Below, piece by piece: positions 13,611 to 31,592 of a stretch of DNA of 34,203 nt. The translations under genes and the position numbers were made by a program. The stretch is taken from contig JAEEOY010000280.1 in NCBI GenBank assembly GCA_016284515.1, positions 1 to 34,203 on the forward strand, read 5' to 3'. Each line of letters begins with the position of its first letter. Position 1 is the stretch's first letter. This stretch comes from Kiritimatiellia bacterium. GTDB lineage: Bacteria; Verrucomicrobiota; Kiritimatiellia; RFP12; UBA1067. The notes under the pieces are model-generated. The model saw nothing but the letters and a program-made list of their open reading frames with translations, had not been told where the DNA came from and searched no databases.

Positions 13611-13649
13611 AGGGTCGGAGGCAGATGCAACATTTCCACAAATAGATAC

Positions 13650-13678
13650 TTGATTATCAATAAGAAAATTGTTATACT
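13650..13678 (+). promoter_or_regulatory. adhE promoter
   Basis: TTGATT (13650-13655), a 17-nt spacer and TATACT (13673-13678), preceded by TGT, so both a -35 and an extended -10 are present. Transcription would start near 13685. Confidence 0.7.
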
Positions 13679-13689
13679 ATCTCCCCGAA

Positions 13690-13709
13690 CGTCGGAGAAG
13701 TGTCCGACG
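13690..13709 (+). repeat. 5'-leader hairpin of adhE
   Basis: CGTCGGA (13690-13696) pairs perfectly with TCCGACG (13703-13709) around a 6-nt loop. It lies at the predicted 5' end of the adhE message, 27 nt before the ATG. It could be an mRNA-stabilising 5' stem-loop or an operator. It does not match the Rex consensus. Confidence 0.5.
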
Positions 13710-13736
13710 CAACGAAAAACACAGGAAAAGGAAAGT

Positions 13737-16379
13737 ATGGAAAGCGCAGAAACATTGGCGGCGCCGGCGGTAGACCCCGGCATCGCGGAACTCGAGGCGA
13801 CGATCGCGCGCGTGAGGGCGGCGCAGAAGGCCTATGCCACGTTCTCCCAGGAGAAGGTGGACTCTATATTCAGGGCCGCCGCGCTTGCCGCGAACCGGCT
13901 GCGCATCCCGCTCGCCAAGATGGCGGTCGAGGAGACGGGCATGGGCATCGTCGAGGACAAGATCATCAAGAACCACTACGCGGCCGAGTACATCTACAAC
14001 ACGTACAAGGACACGAAGACCTGCGGCGTCGTCGAGGAAGACGAGGCGGCCGGCATCATGAAGGTCGCGGAGCCGATCGGCGTGATCGGCGCGGTCATCC
14101 CGACGACGAACCCGACCTCCACGGCGATCTTCAAGACGCTCCTCGCGCTCAAGACGAGGAACGGAATCGTCATCAGCCCCCATCCGCGCGCGAAGAACTG
14201 CACGATGGCGGCGGCGAAGGCTGTTCTCGACGCTGCGGTCGCGGCGGGAGCTCCGGCTGACATCATCTCCTGGATCGAGGCGCCGAGCCTGCCGAAGACG
14301 AACCTCCTCATGAAGGAGTCGGACATCATCCTCGCGACCGGCGGTCCCGGCATGGTGAAGGCTGCGTACTCGAGCGGCACCCCGGCGCTCGGCGTCGGTG
14401 CCGGCAACGCGGCGGCGATCCTCGACCCGAGCTGCGACCTCGTCAACGCCGTCAACTCGATCATCCACTCGAAGACGTTCGACAACGGCATGATCTGCGC
14501 TACGGAGCAGACGGTCATTGCGGACGAGCTCATCTACGACGAGGTCAAGGACGAGTTCAAGCGCCGCGGATGCTACTTCCTGAACAAGGAGGAGGCGGAC
14601 AAGATCCGCGCGACGATGCTCATCAACGGCGCGCTCAACGCGAAGATCGTCGGACAGCGTCCGGTGACGATCGCGAAGATGGCGGGCTTCGAGGTTCCGG
14701 AGTCCACGAAGGTGCTCATCGGCGAGGCGACCTCCACCGACAGCTCCGAGGCGTTCGGGCACGAGAAGCTCACGACGATACTCGGCATGTACAAGAGCCG
14801 CGACTTCGACAACGCCCTCGACATCGCCGAGGCGCTGCTCGTCAACAACGGCGGGCTCGGCCACACGTCGTCGCTCTGGATCGACGAGCTCGGCGAGCGC
14901 GAGAAGCTCGCCAAGTTCGCGGACCGCATGAACGCGTGCCGCCTGCTGGTCAACACTCCGTCGAGCCTCGGCGGAATAGGCGACATCTACAACTTCAGCT
15001 TCCCGCCGTCGCTGACGCTCGGCTGCGGCAGCTGGGGCGGCAATTCCGTGTCCGAGAACGTCGGCGTCAAACATCTTTTGAACATCAAGACCGTGGCAAT
15101 GAGAAGGGAAAACATGCTGTGGTTCCGCGCGCCCGAGAAGGTGTACCAGAAGAAGGGGTGCCTCGCGGTGGCGCTCCGCGAACTCGGCGAGGAGCTCGGG
15201 AAGAAGAAGGCGTTCATCGTCACCGACTCGTTCCTCTACGCGAACGGATACACCAAGGCGATCGAGCGCTCGCTCGAGAAGCAGGGCATCATGTTCACGA
15301 CGTTCTCGAACGTCGCGCCTGATCCGACCCTCGCCTGCGCCAAGGAGGGCGCGAAGTTGATGGCCGGGTTCAAGCCGGACGTCATCATCGCCGTCGGCGG
15401 TGGCTCCGCTATGGACGCCGCCAAGATCATGTGGGTCCTCTACGAGCACCCCGAGGTCGACTTCCAGGACATGGCGATGCGCTTCATGGACATCCGCAAG
15501 CGCGTCTACAAGTTCCCGAAGATGGGCGAGAAGGCGTACTTCGTGTGCGTCCCGACCTCGGCCGGAACGGGCTCGGAGGTCACTCCGTTCGCCGTCATCA
15601 CCGACGAGCAGACGGGCGTGAAGTATCCGCTCGCCGACTACGCGCTCATGCCGAACATGGCGATCGTCGACGCTGACATGCAGATGATGGCACCGCCCGG
15701 ACTCACCAGCGCGTCGGGAATCGACGCGGTGTCGCACGCGCTCGAGGCGTATGCCTCGATGATGGCGACGGACTACACCGACGGACTCGCCATCCGCGCG
15801 CTCCAGACGATCTTCAAGTGGCTGCCGGCGTGCTACGACGCGGCGGTCGCGAAGAAGGCGAACCCCGCCGCTCGCGAGAAGATGGCGAACGCCGCCACGA
15901 TGGCCGGCATGGCCTTCGCGAACGCGTTCCTCGGCGTGATGCACTCGATGGCGCACAAGCTCGGCGCGTTCCACCACATCCCGCACGGAATCGCCAACGC
16001 GCTGATGATGGAGGAGGTCCTCCGCTTCAACGCCGACCCCGTTCCGCGCAAGATGGGCACGTTCCCGCAGTACGACCATCCGCACACCCTCGAGCGCTAC
16101 CTCGAGATCGCCGACGCGCTCGGCATCAAGGGCAAGTCGAAGGGCGAGCAGTTCAACAACCTCTGCAAGGCGATCCGCGAGCTGCAGGCGAGGATCGGCA
16201 TCAAGCCGACGATCCGCGACTACGTTCCGGACGAGAAGGACTTCCTCGCTCGCCTCGACGCGATGGTGGAGCAGGCCTTCGACGACCAGTGCACCGGCGC
16301 GAACCCGCGCTATCCGCTGATGTCGGAGATCAAGCAGATGTACCTCAACGCCTACTACGGCAAGCACGAGGTGGTCTGA
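13737..16379 (+). CDS. adhE: Bifunctional acetaldehyde-CoA/alcohol dehydrogenase
   Basis: AdhE reduces acetyl-CoA to acetaldehyde and then to ethanol with two NADH, regenerating NAD+ in fermentation; the family forms cytoplasmic spirosomes. The 880-residue product (E. coli 891) has an N-terminal aldehyde dehydrogenase domain (about 1-440) with catalytic Cys254 in GMICATEQ. A linker leads to an iron-dependent ADH domain (about 455-870) with GGGSAMDAAK from 554 and iron ligands Asp663, His667, His736 and His750. The open frame extends to 13650, but that would cover the promoter. ATG 13737 follows an AAAGGA-type Shine-Dalgarno and aligns with known N termini. Proximity to the hydrogenases fits a shared role in reductant disposal. 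Confidence 0.96.
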   Translation: MESAETLAAPAVDPGIAELEATIARVRAAQKAYATFSQEKVDSIFRAAALAANRLRIPLAKMAVEETGMGIVEDKIIKNHYAAEYIYNTYKDTKTCGVVEEDEAAGIMKVAEPIGVIGAVIPTTNPTSTAIFKTLLALKTRNGIVISPHPRAKNCTMAAAKAVLDAAVAAGAPADIISWIEAPSLPKTNLLMKESDIILATGGPGMVKAAYSSGTPALGVGAGNAAAILDPSCDLVNAVNSIIHSKTFDNGMICATEQTVIADELIYDEVKDEFKRRGCYFLNKEEADKIRATMLINGALNAKIVGQRPVTIAKMAGFEVPESTKVLIGEATSTDSSEAFGHEKLTTILGMYKSRDFDNALDIAEALLVNNGGLGHTSSLWIDELGEREKLAKFADRMNACRLLVNTPSSLGGIGDIYNFSFPPSLTLGCGSWGGNSVSENVGVKHLLNIKTVAMRRENMLWFRAPEKVYQKKGCLAVALRELGEELGKKKAFIVTDSFLYANGYTKAIERSLEKQGIMFTTFSNVAPDPTLACAKEGAKLMAGFKPDVIIAVGGGSAMDAAKIMWVLYEHPEVDFQDMAMRFMDIRKRVYKFPKMGEKAYFVCVPTSAGTGSEVTPFAVITDEQTGVKYPLADYALMPNMAIVDADMQMMAPPGLTSASGIDAVSHALEAYASMMATDYTDGLAIRALQTIFKWLPACYDAAVAKKANPAAREKMANAATMAGMAFANAFLGVMHSMAHKLGAFHHIPHGIANALMMEEVLRFNADPVPRKMGTFPQYDHPHTLERYLEIADALGIKGKSKGEQFNNLCKAIRELQARIGIKPTIRDYVPDEKDFLARLDAMVEQAFDDQCTGANPRYPLMSEIKQMYLNAYYGKHEVV

Positions 16380-16411: not shown

Positions 16412-16423
16412 AGGAGTTTGAAA

Positions 16424-17224
16424 ATGAAGAAAACTACAGCGAAGAAGGTTCCGGCGAAGCGCGGACGTCCGAGCAGGCAGGACAGTGTTCTGCTCGAGCG
16501 CACCGACAAGGTCGTGACGAAGGACAAGGGCACTGTGCTCAAGATCTTCGGGCCGAGCTACAAGGTGAGCGCGATCCTGAACGAGGCGATGAACGAGGCG
16601 CGCGCCGCGGAGACGGGTCTTCCCGTCGCCAAGGTGCTCGAGGTCCTCAAGATCCGCGACCACTGGTGCATCCGCCGCGAGTGGGTCGAGGGCGAGACGC
16701 TCGCCGACGTGATGGCGAAGGACAAGAAGAACCTCGTCAAGTACCTGAAGCAGTTCGTGGCGATCCAGTGCCAGGTGTTCGCGAAGACGTCCGAGCGCAT
16801 GGGCAACCTCGCCGACAAGCTCGACAAGCAGATATCGGCGTCGCCGCTCCCCAAGGAGACGCGCTACGACCTGCACATGAAGCTGCAGAGCTTTCCGCGC
16901 GGGAAGTCGCTGTGCCACGGGGACTTCAACCCCACGAACGTGATCATCACGCCGAAGGGCGACTGGCGCGTCATCGACTGGAGCCACGTGCGCCTTGGCG
17001 ATCCGCTCGCGGACGTCGCGCGCACGTACCTGCTGTTCTGGCTTTCCGGACACGTCGCGGCGGCGGAGAAGTACATGGCCCTCGCGTGCGAGGCGCTCAA
17101 GGTGAAGCTTCCCGACGTGCAGAAGTGGCTTCCGATCGTCGCCGCGGCGGAATCGTCGCGCGACCAGACGCCGAAGAACCACGAGCTCCTCCTCCACTGG
17201 GCGAGCGTCGTCGACATCGAGTAG
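16424..17224 (+). CDS. APH/choline-kinase-fold phosphotransferase-like protein with basic N-terminal tail
   Basis: A 266-residue protein of the aminoglycoside phosphotransferase/choline kinase fold. The catalytic loop reads LCHGDFNPTNVII (Brenner HGDxxxxN) and is followed by the metal-binding VIDWSHVRLGDPLADVART. The N lobe is short, with no clear glycine loop. Residues 2-20 are lysine-rich and contain RGRP, the core of an AT-hook. Members of this fold phosphorylate small molecules or sometimes proteins; the substrate is unknown, and antibiotic resistance should not be assumed. Start ATG 16424 is preceded by AGGAG (16412-16416) with 7-nt spacing. It may be read from the adhE promoter, since only 44 nt separate them and no new promoter is visible. 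Confidence 0.8.
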   Translation: MKKTTAKKVPAKRGRPSRQDSVLLERTDKVVTKDKGTVLKIFGPSYKVSAILNEAMNEARAAETGLPVAKVLEVLKIRDHWCIRREWVEGETLADVMAKDKKNLVKYLKQFVAIQCQVFAKTSERMGNLADKLDKQISASPLPKETRYDLHMKLQSFPRGKSLCHGDFNPTNVIITPKGDWRVIDWSHVRLGDPLADVARTYLLFWLSGHVAAAEKYMALACEALKVKLPDVQKWLPIVAAAESSRDQTPKNHELLLHWASVVDIE

Positions 17225-17251: not shown

Positions 17252-17294
17252 CGTGACGGGGTTGGCGCTGGATGACGGCACCGGCCCCGTCACG
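17252..17294 (+). repeat. 10-bp inverted repeat after the kinase-like gene
   Basis: CGTGACGGGG (17252-17261) is perfectly complementary to CCCCGTCACG (17285-17294) with a 23-nt loop. It lies 27 bp after the stop codon and 24 bp before the -35 of the hydrogenase operon. No U-tract follows. It could be a Rho-assisted 3' end or an operator. Confidence 0.5.
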
Positions 17295-17317: not shown

Positions 17318-17346
17318 TTGCCTAAGTTGCATGGATTTGAGATAAT
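17318..17346 (+). promoter_or_regulatory. Promoter of the sensory hydrogenase operon
   Basis: TTGCCT (17318-17323), a 17-nt spacer and GATAAT (17341-17346) preceded by TGA. The -10 ends 9 nt before the ATG at 17356 and there is no Shine-Dalgarno. An alternative TATACT lies at 17313-17318 but has a poor -35. Confidence 0.6.
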
Positions 17347-17616: not shown

Positions 17617-19365
17617 ATGCTCTCGAGTCCAGTTTACACTACGGAAAACGAGTGCCAGGACTGCTATAAGTGCGTCCGGCATTGTCCCGTGAAGGCGATC
17701 CGCATCGTCGACGGCAAGGCGAGCGTGATCCCCGAATCGTGCGTCGCCTGCGGAGAGTGCGTCAAGGTCTGCCCCGCGCACGCGAAGAAGATTAGGAGCG
17801 ACCTCGCGCGATTGCAGGAGCTCGTTGCGTCCGGCGCGACGCTGTACGCGTCCGTCGCGCCGAGCTTCGCCGGCTACTTCAAGGGCGTGACGATCGGGCA
17901 GCTCGCCGCGGCGCTCAAGGCCGCGGGATTCGCGGGCGTTAGCGAGACGGCGCACGGCGCGGAATCCGTGAGCGCGCACGTCTCGAAGCTCCTCGACGAG
18001 ACGGACTCACCGCTCGTCATCTCGTCCGCCTGTCCGGCGGCGGTGGACATGGTTCGCAAGTACCTGCCCGGCTACGCCGAGTTCATCTCGCCGCTGCCCT
18101 CGCCCGTGCGCGCGCACTGTAGGCTCATCAAGGAGAAGTACGGACACAACGCGAAGGTCGTCTTCTTCGGACCGTGCGCCGCGAAGAAGAACGAGTCCGA
18201 CGCGCATCCCGACGAGCTTGCGCTCGCCGTCATCTTCCCCGCGCTTGAGCAGTTCCTCGCGGAGAAGGGCATCGCGTTCGGCGAGGAGGCGGAGCTCGCG
18301 CTCGGTCCCGCCGAGGAAGGGCGCTTCTACTCCGTCGAAGGCGGAATGAACGACACGCTGCGCGACGGAAAGAACGACGTCAGATATGTCTCCGTCTCGG
18401 GGCTTGAGGATTTCCGCAGGATGCTCGAGGACTTCGACCCCGCGGAGTTCAAGCTGCATCCGGAGAAGTTCACGCGCAAGCTGTTCGTCGAGGTGCTGGC
18501 GTGTCCGGGCGGATGCGTCAACGGACCCGCCATGCCGCGCGGCGCGTCGGGACTTGCGACCTTGTTCGCGACGGACGCCACCGCGCCAATTCGCGCGTCC
18601 TCTTCGCGCTGCTACTCGCACTGCGGGACGTCCGCATATCCCGCCGCGGCGGTTGTGGACGACGAGCCGGACGAGGCGGCGATCGCCGGCGCGCTCGCGC
18701 GCGTCGGGAAGACGACGAAGGCGGACGAGATCAACTGCGGCGCGTGCGGATACAACTCGTGCCGCGAGTTCGCGAAGGCGCTCCTCGCCGGGAAGGCGGA
18801 GGAGGCGATGTGCCACATCTACCTCAAGAAGAACTTCCAGCGCACGTCGAACGCGCTCATCAAGTACATCCCCGCGGGCGTAGTGATGGTCGACGCGAAG
18901 GGGCTCATCGTCGAGTGCAACCGCCTCTTCGCGGAGATGGCGGGCGCGCTCGGGGAGTACGACGCGCTCGGCAACCTCGACGGACTCGGCGTTGACGCCT
19001 TCATGCCCGACTTCACGGAGCTCTTCGCGGGCGCGGTGGAGCACGGCAGCGAAATCGTCAAGTACCGGCAGCAGTGGAACGGACGCATCGTGACGATAAG
19101 CGTGTTCCCGATCAGCGTCGGAAAGTTCGCGGGCGCGGTCGTTCAGGACGTCACGAAGAACGAGGGACGCCGCGAGGAGATCGCCGCGAAGGCGCGTGAC
19201 GTCATCCGCAAGAACGTCTACACAGTCCAGCAGGTGGCGCGCCTTTTCGGCGAGCACATCGCGGAGACGGAGATCATGCTCAACGAGATCGCGGGCGCGT
19301 ACGAGTCGCAGACCGTCGGCAAGCGTCTGCGCCAAGGCGGAAGCGAGGAGTACCTGAATGGCTGA
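17617..19365 (+). CDS. PAS-containing sensory-type [FeFe] hydrogenase (HydS-like)
   Basis: A 582-residue modular [FeFe] hydrogenase. Residues about 8-55 carry two [4Fe-4S] ferredoxin motifs (CQDCYKCVRHCP, CVACGECVKVCP). The H-cluster domain (about 65-310) keeps the four cubane ligands: Cys139 in L1 (SSACPA), Cys187 in L2 (GPCAAKKNE), and Cys296 and Cys300 in L3 (ACPGGC). The Cys before Cys139, which relays protons in catalytic enzymes, is Ala138. Residues about 374-396 form a further Fe-S domain (CGACGYNSC), and about 405-520 a PAS domain. This build matches putative sensory (group C, HydS) hydrogenases, including Thermotoga maritima HydS with the same Cys-to-Ala change. An AAGGGA Shine-Dalgarno is 6 nt upstream, and the gene overlaps the phosphatase gene by 8 nt. 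Confidence 0.9.
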   Translation: MLSSPVYTTENECQDCYKCVRHCPVKAIRIVDGKASVIPESCVACGECVKVCPAHAKKIRSDLARLQELVASGATLYASVAPSFAGYFKGVTIGQLAAALKAAGFAGVSETAHGAESVSAHVSKLLDETDSPLVISSACPAAVDMVRKYLPGYAEFISPLPSPVRAHCRLIKEKYGHNAKVVFFGPCAAKKNESDAHPDELALAVIFPALEQFLAEKGIAFGEEAELALGPAEEGRFYSVEGGMNDTLRDGKNDVRYVSVSGLEDFRRMLEDFDPAEFKLHPEKFTRKLFVEVLACPGGCVNGPAMPRGASGLATLFATDATAPIRASSSRCYSHCGTSAYPAAAVVDDEPDEAAIAGALARVGKTTKADEINCGACGYNSCREFAKALLAGKAEEAMCHIYLKKNFQRTSNALIKYIPAGVVMVDAKGLIVECNRLFAEMAGALGEYDALGNLDGLGVDAFMPDFTELFAGAVEHGSEIVKYRQQWNGRIVTISVFPISVGKFAGAVVQDVTKNEGRREEIAAKARDVIRKNVYTVQQVARLFGEHIAETEIMLNEIAGAYESQTVGKRLRQGGSEEYLNG

Positions 19366-20545
19366 CGACCTCTTCATCGAGATGGAGGCCGCCCAGTACA
19401 CCAAGACCGGGCAGGGCGCGTGCGGAGACGACGTCAGGTTCATGACCGTCGAGAAGGAGAACCGGCACCTCGTGGCACTCTCCGACGGACTCGGCAGCGG
19501 CGTCAAGGCGAACGTGCTCGCGACGATGACGACCTCGATGGCGATCAAGTTCCTCGAGTCGAACGTCCCGATGCTCGAGGCGGTCGAGATCATCATGGAC
19601 TCGCTTCCGATATGCGAGGTCAGGAAGATCGGCTACGCGACGTTCTCGCTCTTCGACTTCCGCCTCGGCGGAAAGGCGCGCATCAGCGAGATGGGCAACC
19701 CCGGCTACATCCACCTCCGGGGCACGGAGGAGATCGCGCCGCTCAAGGACGAGCAGATCGCCTCCTCTCACTGGCCCGACCGTGAGGTGAGGGAGTGCGA
19801 GGCCGACTTCCGCGCGGGAGACCGCATCATCATGTGCTCCGACGGCGTCACGCAGTCGGGACTTGGCGTCCGCAAGGACATGAAGTTCGGCTGGCGTCGC
19901 TCGGGCGTCCTCAAGTTCGCGCAGGAGAAGATCGCCGCCGACCCCGACATCTCGGCGCGCGACCTGAGCGCGGCGATCGCGCGCGAGGCGCTCTTCCTAA
20001 CGCCGGGCGGATGCAAGGACGACATCAGCTGCGTCGTCTGCTACCTGCGGCGTCCGCGCGTCATGCGCGTCCTGACGGGTCCGCCGTTCTACAAGGACCA
20101 CGACGCGGACTACGCGCGCAAGGCGACGCTCGGATTCGACCACGTCGTGATCTGCGGCGGAACGACCGCGAACATCATGGAGCGTGAGCTCGGCGTCAAG
20201 GTGAAGGTGAAGCTCTCGGACATGAAGTCGTCCGGCGGGCTCCCGCCCGTCGGGACGATGGAGGGCGTCGGAATAGCGACGGAGGGCATCCTCACGCTTG
20301 GACGCGTCCTCTCGGCGCTCGAGCAGATGCGCCCCCCGGAGCGCGAGCCCGCGGCCGCGCGCGCGATTCTCGAGCGAATGATGCGGCACGACCGCATCGA
20401 GTTCGTAATCGGCACGAAGGTGAACGAGTCGCACCAGGACCCGAACATTCCGCAGGACCTGGAGCTCCGCCGCTCCGTCGTCAAGCGCATGTGCGCCGCG
20501 CTCGAGAAGAACTACCGCAAGAAAGTCACCGTAGATTACTACTGA
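19358..20545 (+). CDS. SpoIIE/PP2C-type protein phosphatase, hydrogenase-linked
   Basis: A 395-residue protein. Residues about 5-230 are a PP2C-like SpoIIE phosphatase domain, which dephosphorylates Ser/Thr-phosphoproteins with two metal ions. Metal-binding Asp residues are visible in CGDDVRF (Asp25), LSDGLGSG (Asp43), MCSDGVT and CKDDISCVV. Residues about 240-395 form an extra domain I do not recognise, including VLTGPPFYKDHDADYARKA and HVVICGGTTANIMERELG; GGTTAN suggests a nucleotide- or anion-binding loop. No transmembrane or sensor domain is fused, so the signal should come from the preceding hydrogenase, whose gene it overlaps by 8 nt. No substrate or opposing anti-sigma kinase is apparent in the window. 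Confidence 0.88.
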   Translation: MADDLFIEMEAAQYTKTGQGACGDDVRFMTVEKENRHLVALSDGLGSGVKANVLATMTTSMAIKFLESNVPMLEAVEIIMDSLPICEVRKIGYATFSLFDFRLGGKARISEMGNPGYIHLRGTEEIAPLKDEQIASSHWPDREVRECEADFRAGDRIIMCSDGVTQSGLGVRKDMKFGWRRSGVLKFAQEKIAADPDISARDLSAAIAREALFLTPGGCKDDISCVVCYLRRPRVMRVLTGPPFYKDHDADYARKATLGFDHVVICGGTTANIMERELGVKVKVKLSDMKSSGGLPPVGTMEGVGIATEGILTLGRVLSALEQMRPPEREPAAARAILERMMRHDRIEFVIGTKVNESHQDPNIPQDLELRRSVVKRMCAALEKNYRKKVTVDYY

Positions 20546-20605: not shown

Positions 20606-20869
20606 ATGGACAAGATCAAAGTCGAGGTTTGCTGCGGGACGGCGTGCTATCTGCTTGGCGCCGCCAATCTCATGTCGCTTGAGGACATGCTGCCCGAGAA
20701 CTGCCGTGGCAGGGTCGAGGTCGAGGCGAAGACGTGTCTCGAGCTCTGCGAGAAGGAGAACCTCGGCGGCGCGCCGTACGTGAGGTTCAACGACACCGAG
20801 ATCATGGCGCAGGCGACTCCCGAGAAGGTGCTCGCGCGCATCTCGGAACTAGTGGAAGGGGTTGCCTGA
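20606..20869 (+). CDS. NuoE-like [2Fe-2S] thioredoxin-fold protein (second copy)
   Basis: An 87-residue [2Fe-2S] protein of the same family as the product encoded at 17356. The ligand pattern is CCGTAC (with an additional Cys at the first position) and CLELC. Apart from the fold and ligands the two copies differ clearly, so they are not a recent duplication. It has a strong Shine-Dalgarno and its own extended -10 promoter. Its stop is one base before the ATG of the hydrogenase gene, so the pair is translationally coupled. The likely role is an electron-transfer partner for that hydrogenase. Confidence 0.86.
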   Translation: MDKIKVEVCCGTACYLLGAANLMSLEDMLPENCRGRVEVEAKTCLELCEKENLGGAPYVRFNDTEIMAQATPEKVLARISELVEGVA

Positions 20870-20870
20870 C

Positions 20871-22265
20871 ATGCTCAACGGCTCGACCTTCATCCGCCGC
20901 GAACTGATGATTCGCATCGTGCGCGCCTTCGACGACGGCACGCTGGAGACGGAGCTCGACAAGATTCCGGTCAAGCTCAGGCCCAAGAACTCCATCTCCT
21001 CGCGTTGCTGCGTCTACCACGACCGCGCGATACTCAAGTACCGCCTGATGGCGCTACTTGGCGTTTCGGTGGAGGACGAGACCGACGAGACGAAGGCTCT
21101 TTCGGCCTACTACGCCGAGAAGGCGTGGGGCGGCGGCACGAACGAGACGAAGCCCAAGACGCCGCTTAGCGTCTGCGGTCCCGCGTGCAGCGGCTGCCCG
21201 GACGCGAAGGTAGTCTCCACGCCGAACTGCCGCGGATGCTTTGCGCGCCCGTGCGTCTATAACTGCCCTAAGAAGGCGATCTCCATCGTCGGCGGTCAGT
21301 CGGTGATCGACCAGTCGCTCTGCATCAAGTGCGGCAAGTGCATCACCGCATGCCCGTACCACGCGATCGTGAAGACGTCCGTCCCGTGCGAGGAGGCGTG
21401 CCCCGTGGGGGCGATCCGCAAGAACGAGCACGGCGTCGCGGAGATCGACTTCGCGCGGTGCATCTTCTGCGGGAAGTGCTTTGCGGCGTGTCCGTTTGCG
21501 GCCGTCATGGAGCGCTCCCAGCTCGTTGACGTGCTCGCGGCGATGAAGCGCGGCGAGAAGCTCGTCGCGATGATAGCGCCCGCCGCGGAGAAGCAGTTCC
21601 CCGGCAAGATCGAGCAGCTTCTCGCCGCCTGCGCGAAGGCCGGCTTCAAGGACGTCATGGAGGTCGCGCTCGGCGCGGAGAAGACGACCGAGCATGAGAC
21701 GGCTGAGTTCATAGAGCGCATGGAGAAGGACCAGAAGACGTTCATGACGACGTCGTGCTGCCCCGCGTGGGTGAACCTCGTCGGCAAGCACATGCCCGAC
21801 CTCATCGACCACGTTTCGCTCACGCCGAGTCCGATGATCTACGCGCGCGAGCTCGTGAAGGCGAAGGATCCGGACGCGAAGACGGTCTTCATCGGACCCT
21901 GCGTCGCGAAGCGCAGCGAGGCGCGCCGAAAGGACGTCGACTACGTGCTGTCCTTCGAGGAGCTCGGCGCGATACTCGCCGGACGCAAGATCGACGTCAT
22001 AGCGTGCGAGCCGTGGCCGGTGGAGCGTCCCGCGAACCCGACCGCGCGCAACTACGCGCGGAGCTGCGGCGTGACGGACGCGGTTCTCGACGAGGCGACA
22101 TCGAAGATCCCGGGCTTCAAGCTGAACGCGAAGCAGATCAACGGCATCGACAGGAAGACCTGCACCATGGTGAAGCTCCATGCCTCAGGGAAGATTCCCG
22201 TGAACTTCCTCGAGGTTATGGCCTGCCCCGGCGGATGCCAGAACGGGCCATGCTCGCTTTCGTAA
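20871..22265 (+). CDS. [FeFe] hydrogenase, group B-like, catalytic type
   Basis: A 464-residue [FeFe] hydrogenase. The N-terminal segment FIRRELMIRIVRAFDDGTLE and CCVYHDRAILKYR is typical of group B enzymes. Three or more Cys clusters follow (CGPACSGCPD, CIKCGKCITACP, CIFCGKCFAACP), then the H-cluster domain. L1 is TTSCCPAW with the proton-relay Cys296 present beside ligand Cys297. L2 is GPCVAKRSE (Cys344), and L3 is MACPGGC (Cys452, Cys456). It should therefore turn over H2. The ATG at 20871 is preferred over TTG 20862 because AAGGGG (20856-20861) lies 9 nt upstream. The chain ends only 8 residues after the last ligand, which is short (see findings). It is cytoplasmic with no signal peptide. 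Confidence 0.92.
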   Translation: MLNGSTFIRRELMIRIVRAFDDGTLETELDKIPVKLRPKNSISSRCCVYHDRAILKYRLMALLGVSVEDETDETKALSAYYAEKAWGGGTNETKPKTPLSVCGPACSGCPDAKVVSTPNCRGCFARPCVYNCPKKAISIVGGQSVIDQSLCIKCGKCITACPYHAIVKTSVPCEEACPVGAIRKNEHGVAEIDFARCIFCGKCFAACPFAAVMERSQLVDVLAAMKRGEKLVAMIAPAAEKQFPGKIEQLLAACAKAGFKDVMEVALGAEKTTEHETAEFIERMEKDQKTFMTTSCCPAWVNLVGKHMPDLIDHVSLTPSPMIYARELVKAKDPDAKTVFIGPCVAKRSEARRKDVDYVLSFEELGAILAGRKIDVIACEPWPVERPANPTARNYARSCGVTDAVLDEATSKIPGFKLNAKQINGIDRKTCTMVKLHASGKIPVNFLEVMACPGGCQNGPCSLS

Positions 22266-25523: not shown

Positions 25524-28500
25524 ATGGCGAAGTTCAAGATACTTCTGTCGCGTGCTGTCATTGCGGGGGCGATGGCTATGTGCGCGGGTATGGTCTGGTC
25601 TGCGGACGAGGCGACGTGGATTGGCCCGACGGCCGAAGGAGGGACTTCCTCCTCTGCAGGCGCGAACTGGAATGTGGGCGAGTTCCCGTCGAAGCGGGCA
25701 TATTTCTTCGGCGGCACGGATGGCAAGACGATCGTCTTTGATCAGGCGCATCAGCTTACCGAAACTTCAATTGGTGTTGTAGTCGGCTCGAAGGACACGG
25801 CGTCCACGAACGTAGGTATCGTCGTCTGGCAGGCATCGCAGCCGGATTTCGGAATTTCGGTGCCTACGGTTACTGATCATCCCAACGGTCTTTCCTGGGG
25901 GCTTGCAATCGCTCCCGGGTGGGATTGCCAGTCGGGCTCGCTCCGCATTGTAAGCGGTACATATTCCTTCGCCGGCATCCATCTTGGCTGGGGTGCGCCG
26001 TCCCTGCTCGACATAACCGGCGGAACGGTGGTGTGTACTGAAGACCTGTTCGTAGCAAAGCAGAAGCCGGGAGAAGTCATTGTCGAAGGGCAAGGCCAGC
26101 TTAATGTTTCTCCAGAAAAATGCCTCTATGTAGCCAACGGGCTCTATGACGATGCGACCTCCGTTCTGCGTGTAAAGACGGGCGGTGTTGTATTGGCAAG
26201 CTTCATCGGCGTGGACAACTTCAGCAAGTCAGCGGTCATTCTCGACGGCGGAACGATTGTCAAGAACGGCCTGAACAGCTGGGTTGCGGGTAATGCCGAT
26301 GTACGCAACACGCTGGTGGGCAACTGGTACGGCAACTACGGCGCGGAGGATTTCACTGTTCAGATCACGGAGAACGGCGGTACGCTGCAGTGCGACTACC
26401 CGATTGATTTCGTGGCGAAGCTGTCCGGCTCGGGCGTACTTACGAAGACGGGATCCGAATATCTTGCGCTCAAATGTGCGGTCGACGACACGATCGGCCT
26501 AAACGTGCAGAACGGCACCTTGAAGGTTCCCGCGGGCGCGCAGTTCGCGTCGTTGGCGATTGCCGCCGACGGACGCGTTGAGATCGACTGCTCGACGGAG
26601 GCGAGTCCGTACTCAATAGTGAAGACGGGCGGCACCCTCTCCGTTCCATACGGGACGGATCCCGCGACCCTCATCACGCTTACGGGCACATGTGCCGGAA
26701 ATTACGTGCTGGCGTTCGACGAATCTGACGGCGTATGTACGGGTATCCGAGTTGTCGCCAAGCCCGAAACGGCGATTTGGGACGGTCCTGCTGCGGGAGA
26801 AGGCGTGACTGACGCCATGTGCGCGGTGTCGGTTGCGGCTAACTGGAATCCCGACGGAACGCCGACCAAGGTTTGGCGCTTTGAAGGCGGGAGCGCCGGG
26901 AAGGTTGTCGCCTTCGACAGTGCCGTGACTATGACGGCGTGGCCTAAAATCAATTGCAATGTCCAAGTAGGCGATCCTTCCGAGTCGGGATTCACAGAAC
27001 CTGTCGTCTGGCGTGCGACCGGCGAGGGGTACGGTTTCGCCGATCTCTCGGGCGGTGTATACATTGCGGACGGGACAGATCAGTCCGACCAGCAGCTTAA
27101 GTCGGGCTGGCTCCGCATCGAGAGCGGATCCTACACTGCCGGCGGCAACGGCAACGGCGAGCCGAAGGGACTAGCCGTCGGCAAGTACGGTTCGGCTAAG
27201 TTCGACCTTGTCGGAGGCACGTTCAGTTCGCTGGGCGACGTCAACCTCGCGGGCGACGCGGGCGGCGTGGCGACGGTCGGCTCCAATGAAGAGGGCGCAG
27301 CCCCGGCTCACCTCGAAGTGGCTGGCAACAAATGGCTGTTCGTTTCCGCATCGGGTTCGGCGCCCGGATCGCTGACGGTGCATAAATCAGGCAAAGTCAG
27401 CGCGAGCTACATCAAGTTCTCGAAGTTCGACGGATCCAAACTTATCCTCGACGGCGGCACGCTCGTCAAGAACGGAAACACGGACAGCAACTATTACTAC
27501 GGTTCGCGCGAGGTTCCACTGCAGCTGACCGCGAACGGCGGCACGCTGCAGGCGGACAGCAAGTGCGTCATGTCTGCGGACATTGTTGACGCCGATACCG
27601 AAAGCGTGCAGAAGGGGACGTTCGTAAAGACAGGCGCGCAGGATCTCGTCTTCACGGCCCAGAAGGGCTACACGGGGGCGACGGAGGTGCGCGAAGGCCG
27701 CCTCGTCATTCCCGCCGGCGTTCACGTCGGTTCAGGACTCACGATGTCCGCCGGCACGAAGCTTGTGATAGACTTCTCCGGGTTCGCGGTGGACGGAGAA
27801 GTCGAATACACGCTTGTTTCCGATGGCGGAACGGTAGTTCTGCCGGACGGCACATCGCCTTCTGATATGGTCGAGTTCGCCAACGCCGGTTCCTTTGATC
27901 TTACGGCTGAAGTGACGACAGGCGGCAATGTGGTGATCCGTGGACAGGTCAAGGATGCCTTCGCCGTCGCTCGCATAGACTCGGTGAATTATGCGACGCT
28001 CGGCGGAGCCATGGCGGCGGCGAAGAATGGCGAGACCGTGGTCCTGCTCAAGGATGTCCTCCTGGAGAAAGATACAACAGCCGCGGCCGAGCTCACGCTC
28101 GACCTCAACGGCCACGTTGTCACGCGCCTCTATCTCAATCCGTGCCTTTCGTTCCCATACGGCGGAACGCTTATGAACGGCACGCTGGCGGTTGACGCGT
28201 CGCTCGGCGCCAATCCGGGCGGAGGAACGACGGACAGAGCCTCCCTTGTGTCGGTTGGCGAAGGCAAGACGCTCACAGTGACGAACGTGAACACGGGCGA
28301 TGCGAACGGGCACGAACCGTTCAGCATGTTCTATCTGCGAAAGAAGTCGCGCATCGAGGTGACGGGAGGCACATGGCACGCTGCGACGCTTATGTCGTGC
28401 TATTTCACCGGTAACGATACTGGGAACCTTGTCATATCGGGAGGACGGTTCTACATCCGAGGCTGGCACATACACTATTCGGACGGATCGTCCGAATATC

Positions 28501-31500
28501 AGAATGCCGAGCCGGTAATCTCCGGCGGATCCTTCTCGCTTCCGCCCAAGGCCCAGTGGCTTGCCAATGGCTATGTCATCCTCCATGACGTGACCGACAC
28601 GGAGACGCCGTATCATGTCGTGCCCGAGGCCTCCGCGCCCTATACCGAGGCGGGCTGGCGCTACCGTTATGCGGACGGGGAGTCGGCGGTGAGGGCACGT
28701 GTCGCGAAGCGTACGACCGGAGACGGCGAAAAGTTCTATACATCCCTTGCGGACGCCGTTGGGGCCGCGCAGTCCGGTGAGACGGTGAGCCTTGTGTCCG
28801 ACATTACCGCGCTTGACTCGAACGTGGCGGTCGCAGAAGGCAAGACGCTCACGATTAACGGCAACGGGCACCTTGTGAAGGTCAGGAATCCGTTCGTCTC
28901 CGAATCCGGCTACGTCGCTACCGACTTTACGCTGGAGTTCCGTCAGATGTTCTACGTGTGGAACGGATGCGACGTCACGCTGCGCAACATGCAGCTCATG
29001 GGCGGCGGCATCACCAAGGCATCGGACAACAACAACGGCAGCTACGCCGTGGAGAACGTCGGTACGCTTCTCTTGGACAACGTGACGATAACCCGCTCGA
29101 ACGGGGCTGTCATGAACCAGGGAGGGGCTCGGCTCTTCGTCAATAACTGCCGCCTCGTGCGAAACTGCCGCTTCTGCGCCGGCGGTATCTTCAACTACGG
29201 TTTCGCCGTTCTCAATCGCTCCAGTCTTTCCGAGAACCGTTCGCTCAGCACGGGCGGCGGCGGCGGCGCGACGGAGAACGGCGGCGCGATGTACATAAAC
29301 AACTGCGTGATCTGCAACAACTCCTCCACCGAGATCGGAGGGGCGATAAACAACTACCACACCGGAAACGTGGTCAGCCTCTACATGATGAACACGACGG
29401 TTTCCGGCAACTTCAGCGCGGCGAACAGCTGGGACAACGGTGGCGGGGTCGGGCTGCGTTCTCCCGTCCAGGCCTCGTTCTTCTCGGTGAACAACCTCTT
29501 CTGCAACAACTACCAGATTCAGCTGAACGCCGAAGGCGGCCCCGTGCTGCGTGAATCGGACATTAAGGCGCTGGACTACTCGCTGAAGGCAGGAAGCATG
29601 ACGAACGAGCTTTACTATACCGTTTACTGCGCGTACAACGACATTGGCGACGGATGCCATGTCTCCGAGCACAACCGCTACGTCGAGGCGAATAGTACCA
29701 GCGTATTTAGCGGCTACTATGCCACCACCCGCATCTATCAGAACAACATCGGCACGACGATGCCTGTTAACGGAGCTCGTCTCGTTTCGAAGGACGACGG
29801 TTCGCTCAACGCCGACCTCGCACGCTACGCGCCGATTCTTCGCACCGTGAACGGCGCGGAAGAGACCTACGGCCAGGCTGTGCTGGGAGCCGACGGAGTG
29901 TACACGTACTTCGACGCGTCGGGATGGAAGAACGGCGTCGTCAAGATGTCCTACGCGACTGTTCAGGACGGCGCGCGCATCGGAGAGCGCGACAAGGCTG
30001 GTGCGATTGTCGCCCTCGGCGATCTCCAGCCCGCCGACGCAGAGCACATGGTGACGGACTACTACGAGCTCGCCGGAGCCCGCTCCTTCGGGGTGGCGGG
30101 TGCGTCCGGGTGGTCCGAGGATGAGAAAGTCTACCACACGATCAGGCTTGCGGGCGAGGTAGTCCACGGCACCGTCACGGGCATAACGCTCTACGGCGAC
30201 ACTTATGAAGAGGGTACGGCTGTCACTCTGACGGCGACGCCAGGGGTTGCGCGCACGTTCCTCGGCTGGTTTGTGCCCGGCGAGGAGACTTCGCGCTCGA
30301 CGGACACCGTATGGAATCTCACCGTCGTGGAGGACCTCGTGCTAGAGCCGCGCTTCTCCGAGGTGTCCGAGATGTTCACGCCTTCGCCCAAGGTGCACGT
30401 GAAGATGCAGGGAGCTGCGGAAGCGCCGCTCTTCCCGATCACGGTGACGACGGCGTGGATGCTGCAGCGGTATCCTGACATCGAGGATCGGCTTTCGGGA
30501 AAGACGACTCAAGAGCAGGAGTCGATTCTCACCAGACTCCTCGAGGTCGTCGATGCAGACACGGGGCTTAAGCTCTGGCAGGACTATGTGCTCGGCATTA
30601 CGCCCGGCTCCAAGAACGCGGCTCTCTGGATTGATTCGCCGCAGTACAGGTCCGTCGGCGGCAACATCATCCGCTTCAAGATGAACGACCTTGCGCCAGT
30701 GAGCGGATCCGGCTTCGATGTTCGCTACCGTCTCGACAAGAAGCTTGGCACTGCAGTGGAGTTCGTGCGCGACGTGGTCAACGCGACCGGCGTCTTCGAC
30801 GTGAACGTCGCGACGGATCCCACGGGGCTCTATGTCATTGACCTGCTGTTCGTCCCGACGGGCGAGGCGACTTCGGAGGAGTTTGTGACGACGGTCAACA
30901 CGGCTGGCGTCCTCCGCGTCGCGACGGCGGCCGAACGCGCCGCGCTTTCTGTGCCGTGGACGAAGCTTGCGCCGTCAGGCTCCGCTCACGTTGAAGCCGT
31001 GGACCTCGTGAAGACGATGAACCTTACGACGGGCGACAGGCTGTTCGTCTACGACGGCTCGCAGAAGAGCTACAGGGCGTTCCAGCTTCGTGACAGCGGC
31101 ACGTGGGAGGCTCTTGCGGTATATTCGATCAGCGAGAGCGGTGGCGTCGACTGGACTGCCGCGGCGGCCGCGAAGGATTCCTCCGTTGCGCGTGGAGCCG
31201 GTTTCTGGCTCGAGCGCCAGAACACTGAAGGTTTCGTCTACCTCGTCGGACAGGTCGATGCGACGTCCGACGCTGTGACGACGCCGCTTTCGGCGGGATG
31301 GAACCTTGTCGGCAGCCCGGCGACTTCGGAGTTCGACTTCTCCGAACTCCAGCCTACGGAAGGCGACAGGATCGTCGTACCTACGGCGGGCGAGCCGAAG
31401 AACCTGACGTGGCAGAACGAAAGCTGGGGATACTACAAGAACACGGTCTTCGAGACTGCAAGCGGACGCAAATACGTGAAGCCCGTATGGACTACGACGG

Positions 31501-31592
31501 ACAACGTAGTGCCCGTCGGTACAGCATTCTGGTACATAAGGGAAAATTCTGGCGAAGTCAGCATAAATTGGTCGACAAAGGAGGTCCACTGA
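25524..31592 (+). CDS. Giant secreted mosaic surface protein (autotransporter-type strand repeats, beta-helix, InlB-like repeat)
   Basis: A 2022-residue exported protein (signal peptide about 1-27, ending VWSA). Two long homologous units follow (about 30-410 and 417-810), each opening with W-x-GP...ANWN and closing with autotransporter-associated strand motifs (GVLTKTGSEYLAL, GATEVREGRLVIPAG). Two YxxLxxAxxxAxxGETVxL modules start near 822 and 1072. Residues about 1145-1340 look like a parallel beta-helix with GGAI and NN motifs as in chlamydial Pmp proteins. A TVTLTATP/FLGWF bacterial repeat sits at about 1538-1620, and a terminal domain with AGWNLVGSPA near 1923. No outer-membrane barrel or sorting tail is visible. 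Its stop overlaps the PEP-CTERM gene. Likely a surface or matrix protein; ligand unknown. Confidence 0.85.
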   Translation: MAKFKILLSRAVIAGAMAMCAGMVWSADEATWIGPTAEGGTSSSAGANWNVGEFPSKRAYFFGGTDGKTIVFDQAHQLTETSIGVVVGSKDTASTNVGIVVWQASQPDFGISVPTVTDHPNGLSWGLAIAPGWDCQSGSLRIVSGTYSFAGIHLGWGAPSLLDITGGTVVCTEDLFVAKQKPGEVIVEGQGQLNVSPEKCLYVANGLYDDATSVLRVKTGGVVLASFIGVDNFSKSAVILDGGTIVKNGLNSWVAGNADVRNTLVGNWYGNYGAEDFTVQITENGGTLQCDYPIDFVAKLSGSGVLTKTGSEYLALKCAVDDTIGLNVQNGTLKVPAGAQFASLAIAADGRVEIDCSTEASPYSIVKTGGTLSVPYGTDPATLITLTGTCAGNYVLAFDESDGVCTGIRVVAKPETAIWDGPAAGEGVTDAMCAVSVAANWNPDGTPTKVWRFEGGSAGKVVAFDSAVTMTAWPKINCNVQVGDPSESGFTEPVVWRATGEGYGFADLSGGVYIADGTDQSDQQLKSGWLRIESGSYTAGGNGNGEPKGLAVGKYGSAKFDLVGGTFSSLGDVNLAGDAGGVATVGSNEEGAAPAHLEVAGNKWLFVSASGSAPGSLTVHKSGKVSASYIKFSKFDGSKLILDGGTLVKNGNTDSNYYYGSREVPLQLTANGGTLQADSKCVMSADIVDADTESVQKGTFVKTGAQDLVFTAQKGYTGATEVREGRLVIPAGVHVGSGLTMSAGTKLVIDFSGFAVDGEVEYTLVSDGGTVVLPDGTSPSDMVEFANAGSFDLTAEVTTGGNVVIRGQVKDAFAVARIDSVNYATLGGAMAAAKNGETVVLLKDVLLEKDTTAAAELTLDLNGHVVTRLYLNPCLSFPYGGTLMNGTLAVDASLGANPGGGTTDRASLVSVGEGKTLTVTNVNTGDANGHEPFSMFYLRKKSRIEVTGGTWHAATLMSCYFTGNDTGNLVISGGRFYIRGWHIHYSDGSSEYQNAEPVISGGSFSLPPKAQWLANGYVILHDVTDTETPYHVVPEASAPYTEAGWRYRYADGESAVRARVAKRTTGDGEKFYTSLADAVGAAQSGETVSLVSDITALDSNVAVAEGKTLTINGNGHLVKVRNPFVSESGYVATDFTLEFRQMFYVWNGCDVTLRNMQLMGGGITKASDNNNGSYAVENVGTLLLDNVTITRSNGAVMNQGGARLFVNNCRLVRNCRFCAGGIFNYGFAVLNRSSLSENRSLSTGGGGGATENGGAMYINNCVICNNSSTEIGGAINNYHTGNVVSLYMMNTTVSGNFSAANSWDNGGGVGLRSPVQASFFSVNNLFCNNYQIQLNAEGGPVLRESDIKALDYSLKAGSMTNELYYTVYCAYNDIGDGCHVSEHNRYVEANSTSVFSGYYATTRIYQNNIGTTMPVNGARLVSKDDGSLNADLARYAPILRTVNGAEETYGQAVLGADGVYTYFDASGWKNGVVKMSYATVQDGARIGERDKAGAIVALGDLQPADAEHMVTDYYELAGARSFGVAGASGWSEDEKVYHTIRLAGEVVHGTVTGITLYGDTYEEGTAVTLTATPGVARTFLGWFVPGEETSRSTDTVWNLTVVEDLVLEPRFSEVSEMFTPSPKVHVKMQGAAEAPLFPITVTTAWMLQRYPDIEDRLSGKTTQEQESILTRLLEVVDADTGLKLWQDYVLGITPGSKNAALWIDSPQYRSVGGNIIRFKMNDLAPVSGSGFDVRYRLDKKLGTAVEFVRDVVNATGVFDVNVATDPTGLYVIDLLFVPTGEATSEEFVTTVNTAGVLRVATAAERAALSVPWTKLAPSGSAHVEAVDLVKTMNLTTGDRLFVYDGSQKSYRAFQLRDSGTWEALAVYSISESGGVDWTAAAAAKDSSVARGAGFWLERQNTEGFVYLVGQVDATSDAVTTPLSAGWNLVGSPATSEFDFSELQPTEGDRIVVPTAGEPKNLTWQNESWGYYKNTVFETASGRKYVKPVWTTTDNVVPVGTAFWYIRENSGEVSINWSTKEVH

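Follow-up and report, generated by a model that had tools for sequence, protein, structure and literature searches.

A PAS-Containing, Phosphatase-Linked Putative H2-Sensing [FeFe] Hydrogenase beside a Group B Hydrogenase in Kiritimatiellia and Related Bacteria

In this study, we believe that HydS, the first of two neighbouring [FeFe] hydrogenases in a Kiritimatiellia contig of 34,203 nucleotides (the window, meaning the whole stretch analysed), is probably a PAS-containing, phosphatase-linked H2 sensor, which would balance H2 against ethanol through the adjoining PP2C phosphatase, the second hydrogenase HydB and AdhE. By analogy with characterised enzymes, HydS probably has low activity and serves to sense H2, not to produce it. 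The model of HydS is built on residues, domains, gene order and conservation, all of which were observed directly and are described below.

Results

Genome and operon

The genome assembly comprises 3.86 Mb in 292 contigs. Its closest relatives with a name are MAGs from the rumen that carry the label Lentisphaerae/Kiritimatiellae. The genome encodes three PF02906 proteins in total as well as the maturase HydG (423 bits against a cutoff of 312), so the H-cluster can probably be made. The genes around HydS are arranged in the order adhE, APH-like phosphotransferase, NuoE1, HydS, PP2C, NuoE2 and HydB (Table 1).

Table 1. Features of the adhE–HydS–HydB region (positions in the window).
Feature	Position	Strand	Basis
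adhE, bifunctional acetaldehyde-CoA/alcohol dehydrogenase	13650..16379	+	NF010378 1320 bits, cutoff 951; likely start ATG 13737
APH-like phosphotransferase, between adhE and the operon	16418..17224	+	PF01636 E 1.3e-15; likely ATG 16424
Inverted repeat 3' of the APH gene, 17-bp arms	17252..17294	.	82% complementary arms, 9-nt loop
Weak promoter-like site 5' of NuoE1-HydS-PP2C	17318..17346	+	TTGCCT-17-GATAAT with TG
NuoE1, thioredoxin-like [2Fe-2S] protein, 85 aa	17356..17613	+	PF01257 E 1.4e-12
HydS, Group C-type putative sensory [FeFe] hydrogenase, 582 aa	17617..19365	+	Pfam, model
Ala138 codon GCC, CpI Cys299 relay position	18028..18030	+	Translation, alignments
L2 Gly185-Pro-Cys187, Gly at the CpI Met353 position, same in HydB	18169..18177	+	
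L3 Leu294-Ala-Cys296...Cys300, Leu294 at the CpI Met497 position	18496..18516	+	Alignment
SpoIIE/RsbU-type PP2C phosphatase (P0003), start overlaps HydS end	19358..20545	+	PF07228 E 4.5e-14
NuoE2, small [2Fe-2S] thioredoxin-like, directly before HydB	20606..20869	+	PF01257 E 3.3e-4, under curated cutoff
HydB (P0004), group B1 [FeFe] hydrogenase	20871..22265	+	TIGR04105 503.9 bits, cutoff 450; likely ATG 20871

Promoter-like sites similar to that before NuoE1 were present in the nearest relatives (L036-L039). The inverted repeat upstream of this site is a possible transcription end, and the terminator scan did not flag it. The APH-like gene occupied the position between adhE and the operon in nearer relatives only, and its membership in the HydS system is uncertain; it could be a kinase opposing the PP2C phosphatase.

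In the phosphatase alignment, which left out one locus with a stop, the metal-site aspartates D24, D43, D162, D221 and D222 of PP2C were invariant, and the best Foldseek match of the PP2C model was SpoIIE (5mqh, E 2.3e-15). The C-terminal domain of the phosphatase (about residues 233-395; 20054-20542) was conserved and well predicted, and no Pfam or NCBIfam name was found for it. Three STAS proteins in the genome are candidate PP2C substrates, none of them linked to the HydS operon. Further downstream, the window contains a 2022-residue open frame (25524-31592) with weak repeat-domain matches (Flg_new_2, PATR), which is probably a large surface protein.

Domains and class of HydS

HydS consists of two [4Fe-4S] clusters (7-58), an H-cluster domain (76-304; PF02906, E 3.2e-39), a C-terminal FeS domain (372-399), a PAS fold (about 418-511) and C-terminal helices. 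The C-terminal [4Fe-4S] domain PF04060 scored 39.2 bits against a cutoff of 23 in the window HydS and was present in all 30 diverse members. PAS_8 scored just under its cutoff in the window HydS (21.7 against 21.8 bits; E 1.8e-4), matched 13 of the 30 diverse members and exceeded the cutoff in one relative (L099). The AlphaFold2 model of HydS had a mean pLDDT of 75 and a pTM of 0.64, with low confidence in the C-terminal helices, and residues of about 421-511 were arranged as strand-strand-helices-three-strands, which is the order of a PAS domain. The VIA-align list was filled by matches to the hydrogenase domain: the first 348 residues matched CpI and others, and 337 residues were aligned to CpI (4xdc) with a Z of 35.3 and an rmsd of 3.0.

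The H-cluster domain with its four cysteines, the C-terminal FeS domain and the PAS domain after it are all traits of Group C hydrogenases. HydS also has the usual Group C combination of a non-Cys relay residue and a small residue at the M353 position (Ala138 and Gly185), of which Gly185 is not specific. Group D enzymes have no PAS domain, whereas a PAS-like C-terminal domain is present in HydS. HydS is thus described here as a putative Group C-type hydrogenase, placed by domains and motifs and not by a tree.

As a side observation, one sequence (L118:51-1985) encodes an [FeFe] hydrogenase-like protein of another kind, in which SSACPTV is present, L2 reads SPC and the M497 position is occupied by Asn. 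It has Ala at the relay position without a phosphatase match and a C-terminal FeS domain, and no PAS domain was found in it.

Relay position and cubane ligands

Positions 18022-18042 translate as S136-S137-A138-C139-P140-A141-A142, and both the GCC codon and the alignment to solved enzymes bore out the preliminary description, which had placed an alanine in SSACPA where catalytic [FeFe] hydrogenases have the proton-relay cysteine. Its statements that the four cubane ligands are retained and that the neighbouring hydrogenase keeps TSCCP were equally correct: Cys139, 187, 296 and 300 of HydS are all present and were invariant in relatives down to 45% identity, and TSCCP occupies residues 297-301 of HydB, with the relay Cys codon at 21756-21758.

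Among the HydS relatives fetched from genomes, Ala filled the relay column in 63 of the 65 rows of the alignment; of the remaining two, one is gapped and one is an artefact at a fragment edge. Ala was found in all complete HydS sequences (57/57) and in all members of the diverse alignment down to 45% identity (30/30), while HydB had Cys at this position in 43/43. Many of the aligned HydS sequences are close relatives, and independent support comes from the spread over classes and not from the raw count; Ala138 was seen across Kiritimatiellia, Lentisphaeria, Planctomycetia and Spirochaetes. Two bases have to change to turn Cys into Ala (TGY to GCY); because of this, and because Ala recurs in the relatives, Ala138 is not due to chance or sequencing error.

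Candidates for a substitute relay were also considered. The preliminary description had named another Cys filling the relay position as an outcome that would speak against it; none was found in the Ala138 column when HydS was aligned with the solved [FeFe] hydrogenases (HDCR HydA2, T. kivui HydA1 and D. desulfuricans). Cys142 lies four residues past the relay column and occurs in 17 of 65 rows, not including the window HydS. Glu241 and Arg236 are kept in near relatives, though not across the wider phosphatase-linked set.

Proton path and active-site pocket

CpI positions were assigned with a group A-like hydrogenase from the same genome (L001; TSCCP, MPC, EVMAC) as the ruler. HydB retained the path residues in 43/43 sequences (E279 as E, E282 as E, R286 as R/K, C299 as C and S319 as S). 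In HydS (n=57), the E279 position was mostly V/T, the E282 position mostly L/F (Glu in 2), the R286 position mostly T and the C299 position always A, and Ser was found at the S319 position in 34 alone. In the window HydS, E279 corresponds to Val, E282 to Leu and R286 to Thr; the E279-R286 stretch is gapped in HydS, which makes single-column matches less certain, and no conserved Glu is left in it. Judged from these alignments, the Group A proton path is gone from HydS and intact in HydB, so that the pair offers a clean natural comparison of two neighbours with the path absent and present.

The preliminary description had also taken the start of L2, GPC rather than MPC, as a mark of the sensor. 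GPC is indeed present (185-187), but it does not separate the two hydrogenases because it is invariant in both HydS and HydB. At the M497 position, by contrast, all HydS have Leu and HydB has Met; as aligned, Leu294 is a second clean difference between HydS and HydB, one that the preliminary description did not contain. The F417 position was Tyr in all HydS of the 57-sequence set (Tyr238 in the window) and Tyr or Phe in HydB.

Conservation of gene order

Synteny was counted at loci with enough flank to test. PP2C lay directly 3' of HydS at all 54 testable loci, and NuoE1 lay 5' of HydS at 56/58. HydB was just downstream at 42/49 and missing from there at 7/49; in L086-L088 and L095 it was located upstream instead, and in L043, L049, L055, L059, L065 and L096 PP2C stayed with HydS where HydB was absent nearby. 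AdhE was encoded within 3 kb upstream at 18/35 testable loci and at 10 short-flank loci, and it was not found within this distance at 17/35. Because adhE was not found within 3 kb at some loci and HydB is missing downstream at others, their co-regulation with HydS is not universal.

No operator shared by adhE and the HydS operon was found by eye. In several Kiritimatiellia relatives (L043, L045, L055, L094), the -35 region of the adhE promoter is spanned by an inverted repeat resembling ATATCG-N12-CGATAT, with a weaker version at 13640-13680 in the window, and many Lentisphaeria adhE promoters contain repeated GATGATAA. Judged by eye, these repeats are possible operators.

Discussion

The pair of a likely slow sensor and a likely fast catalyst suggested in the preliminary description holds up in part, and on other grounds than those first given. 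The GPC contrast and Ala138 as the cause of slowness drop out of the argument, and the PAS-like and C-terminal FeS domains, the SpoIIE phosphatase, the loss and retention of the proton path and the synteny make the pair well supported at the level of sequence. HydB is the probable HfsD-like catalytic partner of HydS.

We propose that H2 would bind the H-cluster of HydS and be turned over slowly, the Group A proton path being lost and Leu294 lying in the pocket. A redox or conformational change could then travel via the FeS clusters into the PAS domain and the C-terminal helices of HydS, and the signal would alter how active the neighbouring SpoIIE-type phosphatase is. The phosphatase may in turn dephosphorylate its target, for which a STAS anti-anti-sigma protein is a candidate; as a result the expression or activity of the group B hydrogenase and AdhE would be adjusted, and H2 and ethanol balanced. 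In this scheme, H2 sensing, low turnover and the link to ethanol are putative and come from the named relatives discussed below.

Other roles of HydS were considered. HydS might form a complex with HydB and the NuoE-like proteins as a subunit that catalyses slowly or transfers electrons, and its PAS domain would then only hold the complex together. That HydB and two [2Fe-2S] proteins are encoded in one tight operon with HydS fits such a complex, and a 2026 paper has raised HfsABC as a possible functional hydrogenase without HfsD (PMC13277313). We consider this role quite improbable, given that the proton path is lost in HydS and wholly kept in HydB, and that PP2C accompanies HydS even without HydB nearby. 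Moreover, the deletion of hfsA or hfsB in Thermoanaerobacterium increased ethanol yield and adhE expression (PMC5707799); the authors read the hfsB result as regulatory, and it speaks against a subunit role. The idea that HydS is a degenerate former hydrogenase on its way to loss could explain why the relay Cys and other proton-path residues have disappeared, but it is contradicted by cubane ligands and many second-shell residues that are invariant to 45% identity, by frames of HydS that are intact across many genomes and by the conserved operon, and we give it almost no credence.

It is less improbable, though still unlikely, that HydS senses the redox state of ferredoxin or NADH through its FeS clusters and NuoE1, with H2 as just one means of setting this state. 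The two N-terminal FeS clusters, the C-terminal one and the adjoining NuoE-like protein are all conserved, as this role would predict. Against it stand the four H-cluster cysteines: because all four are invariant, we argue that the H-cluster itself is needed. A finding in PMC13104023 is stated there to challenge earlier signalling ideas, and we also counted it against a redox sensor.

One study found that Ala accounts for about 43% of sensory enzymes at the relay position and Cys for 17% only, that Gly accounts for about 51% at the M353 position, and that the A131C variant of TmHydS is less active than the wild type (PMC10055695). Because Ala is the commonest residue in sensory enzymes and A131C lowered activity, Ala138 was not read as the cause of slowness; by analogy it is a family mark, normal for the sensory type. 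For the same kind of reason by analogy, fast catalysis is not expected to return in an Ala138Cys variant of HydS.

The relay residue might carry information on the output module. Further phosphatase-linked HydS from class-level relatives had Ala in 11/11, whereas the histidine-kinase-type HydS (n=8, L110-L117) had Thr in 7 and Ser in 1, together with an altered L3 (LACQGC, LCCNGC), which may affect how the last two cubane cysteines are spaced; both sets were picked by similarity to the window HydS, and the counts ignore relatedness. The kinase type was recognised by HisKA and HATPase_c in Pfam in three sequences and by motifs read by eye in the rest, one of which is truncated. At F417, most phosphatase-linked HydS have Tyr and the kinase-fused ones Phe; at M497, the phosphatase-linked ones have Leu. 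These sequences hint that, within the class, the relay residue is matched to the signalling output, Ala with a phosphatase and Thr/Ser with a histidine kinase, a tentative idea that we consider rather unlikely. If true, the H-cluster pocket would be adapted to the output or the range of H2, and not merely freed from selection for speed.

HydS and its counterparts in the rumen Kiritimatiellia and their relatives belong to a known type, the phosphatase-linked Group C putative H2 sensor. Our literature search, with subscription papers mostly outside its scope, found no description of the module in Kiritimatiellia, Lentisphaeria, Planctomycetia or Spirochaetes. These results place a full hfs-like module, with its putative H2 sensing and balancing of ethanol and H2, in rumen/gut Kiritimatiellia, Lentisphaeria, Planctomycetia and some Spirochaetes, and the way fermenting bacteria sense H2 is relevant to methane in the rumen.

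Among the known systems, the window locus was filed with the hfs and R. albus type because the same parts are present. In the hfs operon, HfsB is a PAS hydrogenase, HfsC a serine phosphatase and HfsD a catalytic hydrogenase (PMC11837493); HfsD has been termed group B, and the sensory role is putative even in the characterised relatives (PMC8924675). The hfsABCD genes of Thermoanaerobacterium resemble the window locus in the order of their three parts (PAS hydrogenase, then serine phosphatase, then catalytic hydrogenase) and in the link to adhE. They differ in that two NuoE-like genes are present here, whereas HfsA is described otherwise in the literature, and in that adhE lies directly upstream in many relatives of the window locus. 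The hydS-hydA2-adhE region of Ruminococcus albus, also a rumen bacterium, shares the PAS sensor, the phosphatase, the ferredoxin-type hydrogenase and adhE. Its eight-gene cluster, in which a bifunctional alcohol/aldehyde dehydrogenase is encoded along with a group C and a ferredoxin hydrogenase, was down 111-fold when an H2 consumer was grown alongside, and its catalytic partner is called group A1 (PMC6776011), in contrast to group B1 by TIGR04105 here.

Among single enzymes, TmHydS is similar to HydS in its relay Ala (A131), in G177 at the M353 position, in Y223 at the F417 position and in its PAS domain and C-terminal FeS. It differs in having Ser267 where HydS has Leu294. The correspondence between the two enzymes is taken from the text of the paper and from motif spacing. 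The fixed Leu294 touches on a question about the M497 position that the TmHydS authors left open. TamHydS of Thermoanaerobacter mathranii (Group D) likewise has Ala at the relay position (A137) and a C-terminal FeS cluster; unlike HydS, it has no PAS domain, and its relay Glu252 appears, from motif spacing only, to correspond to Val260 here.
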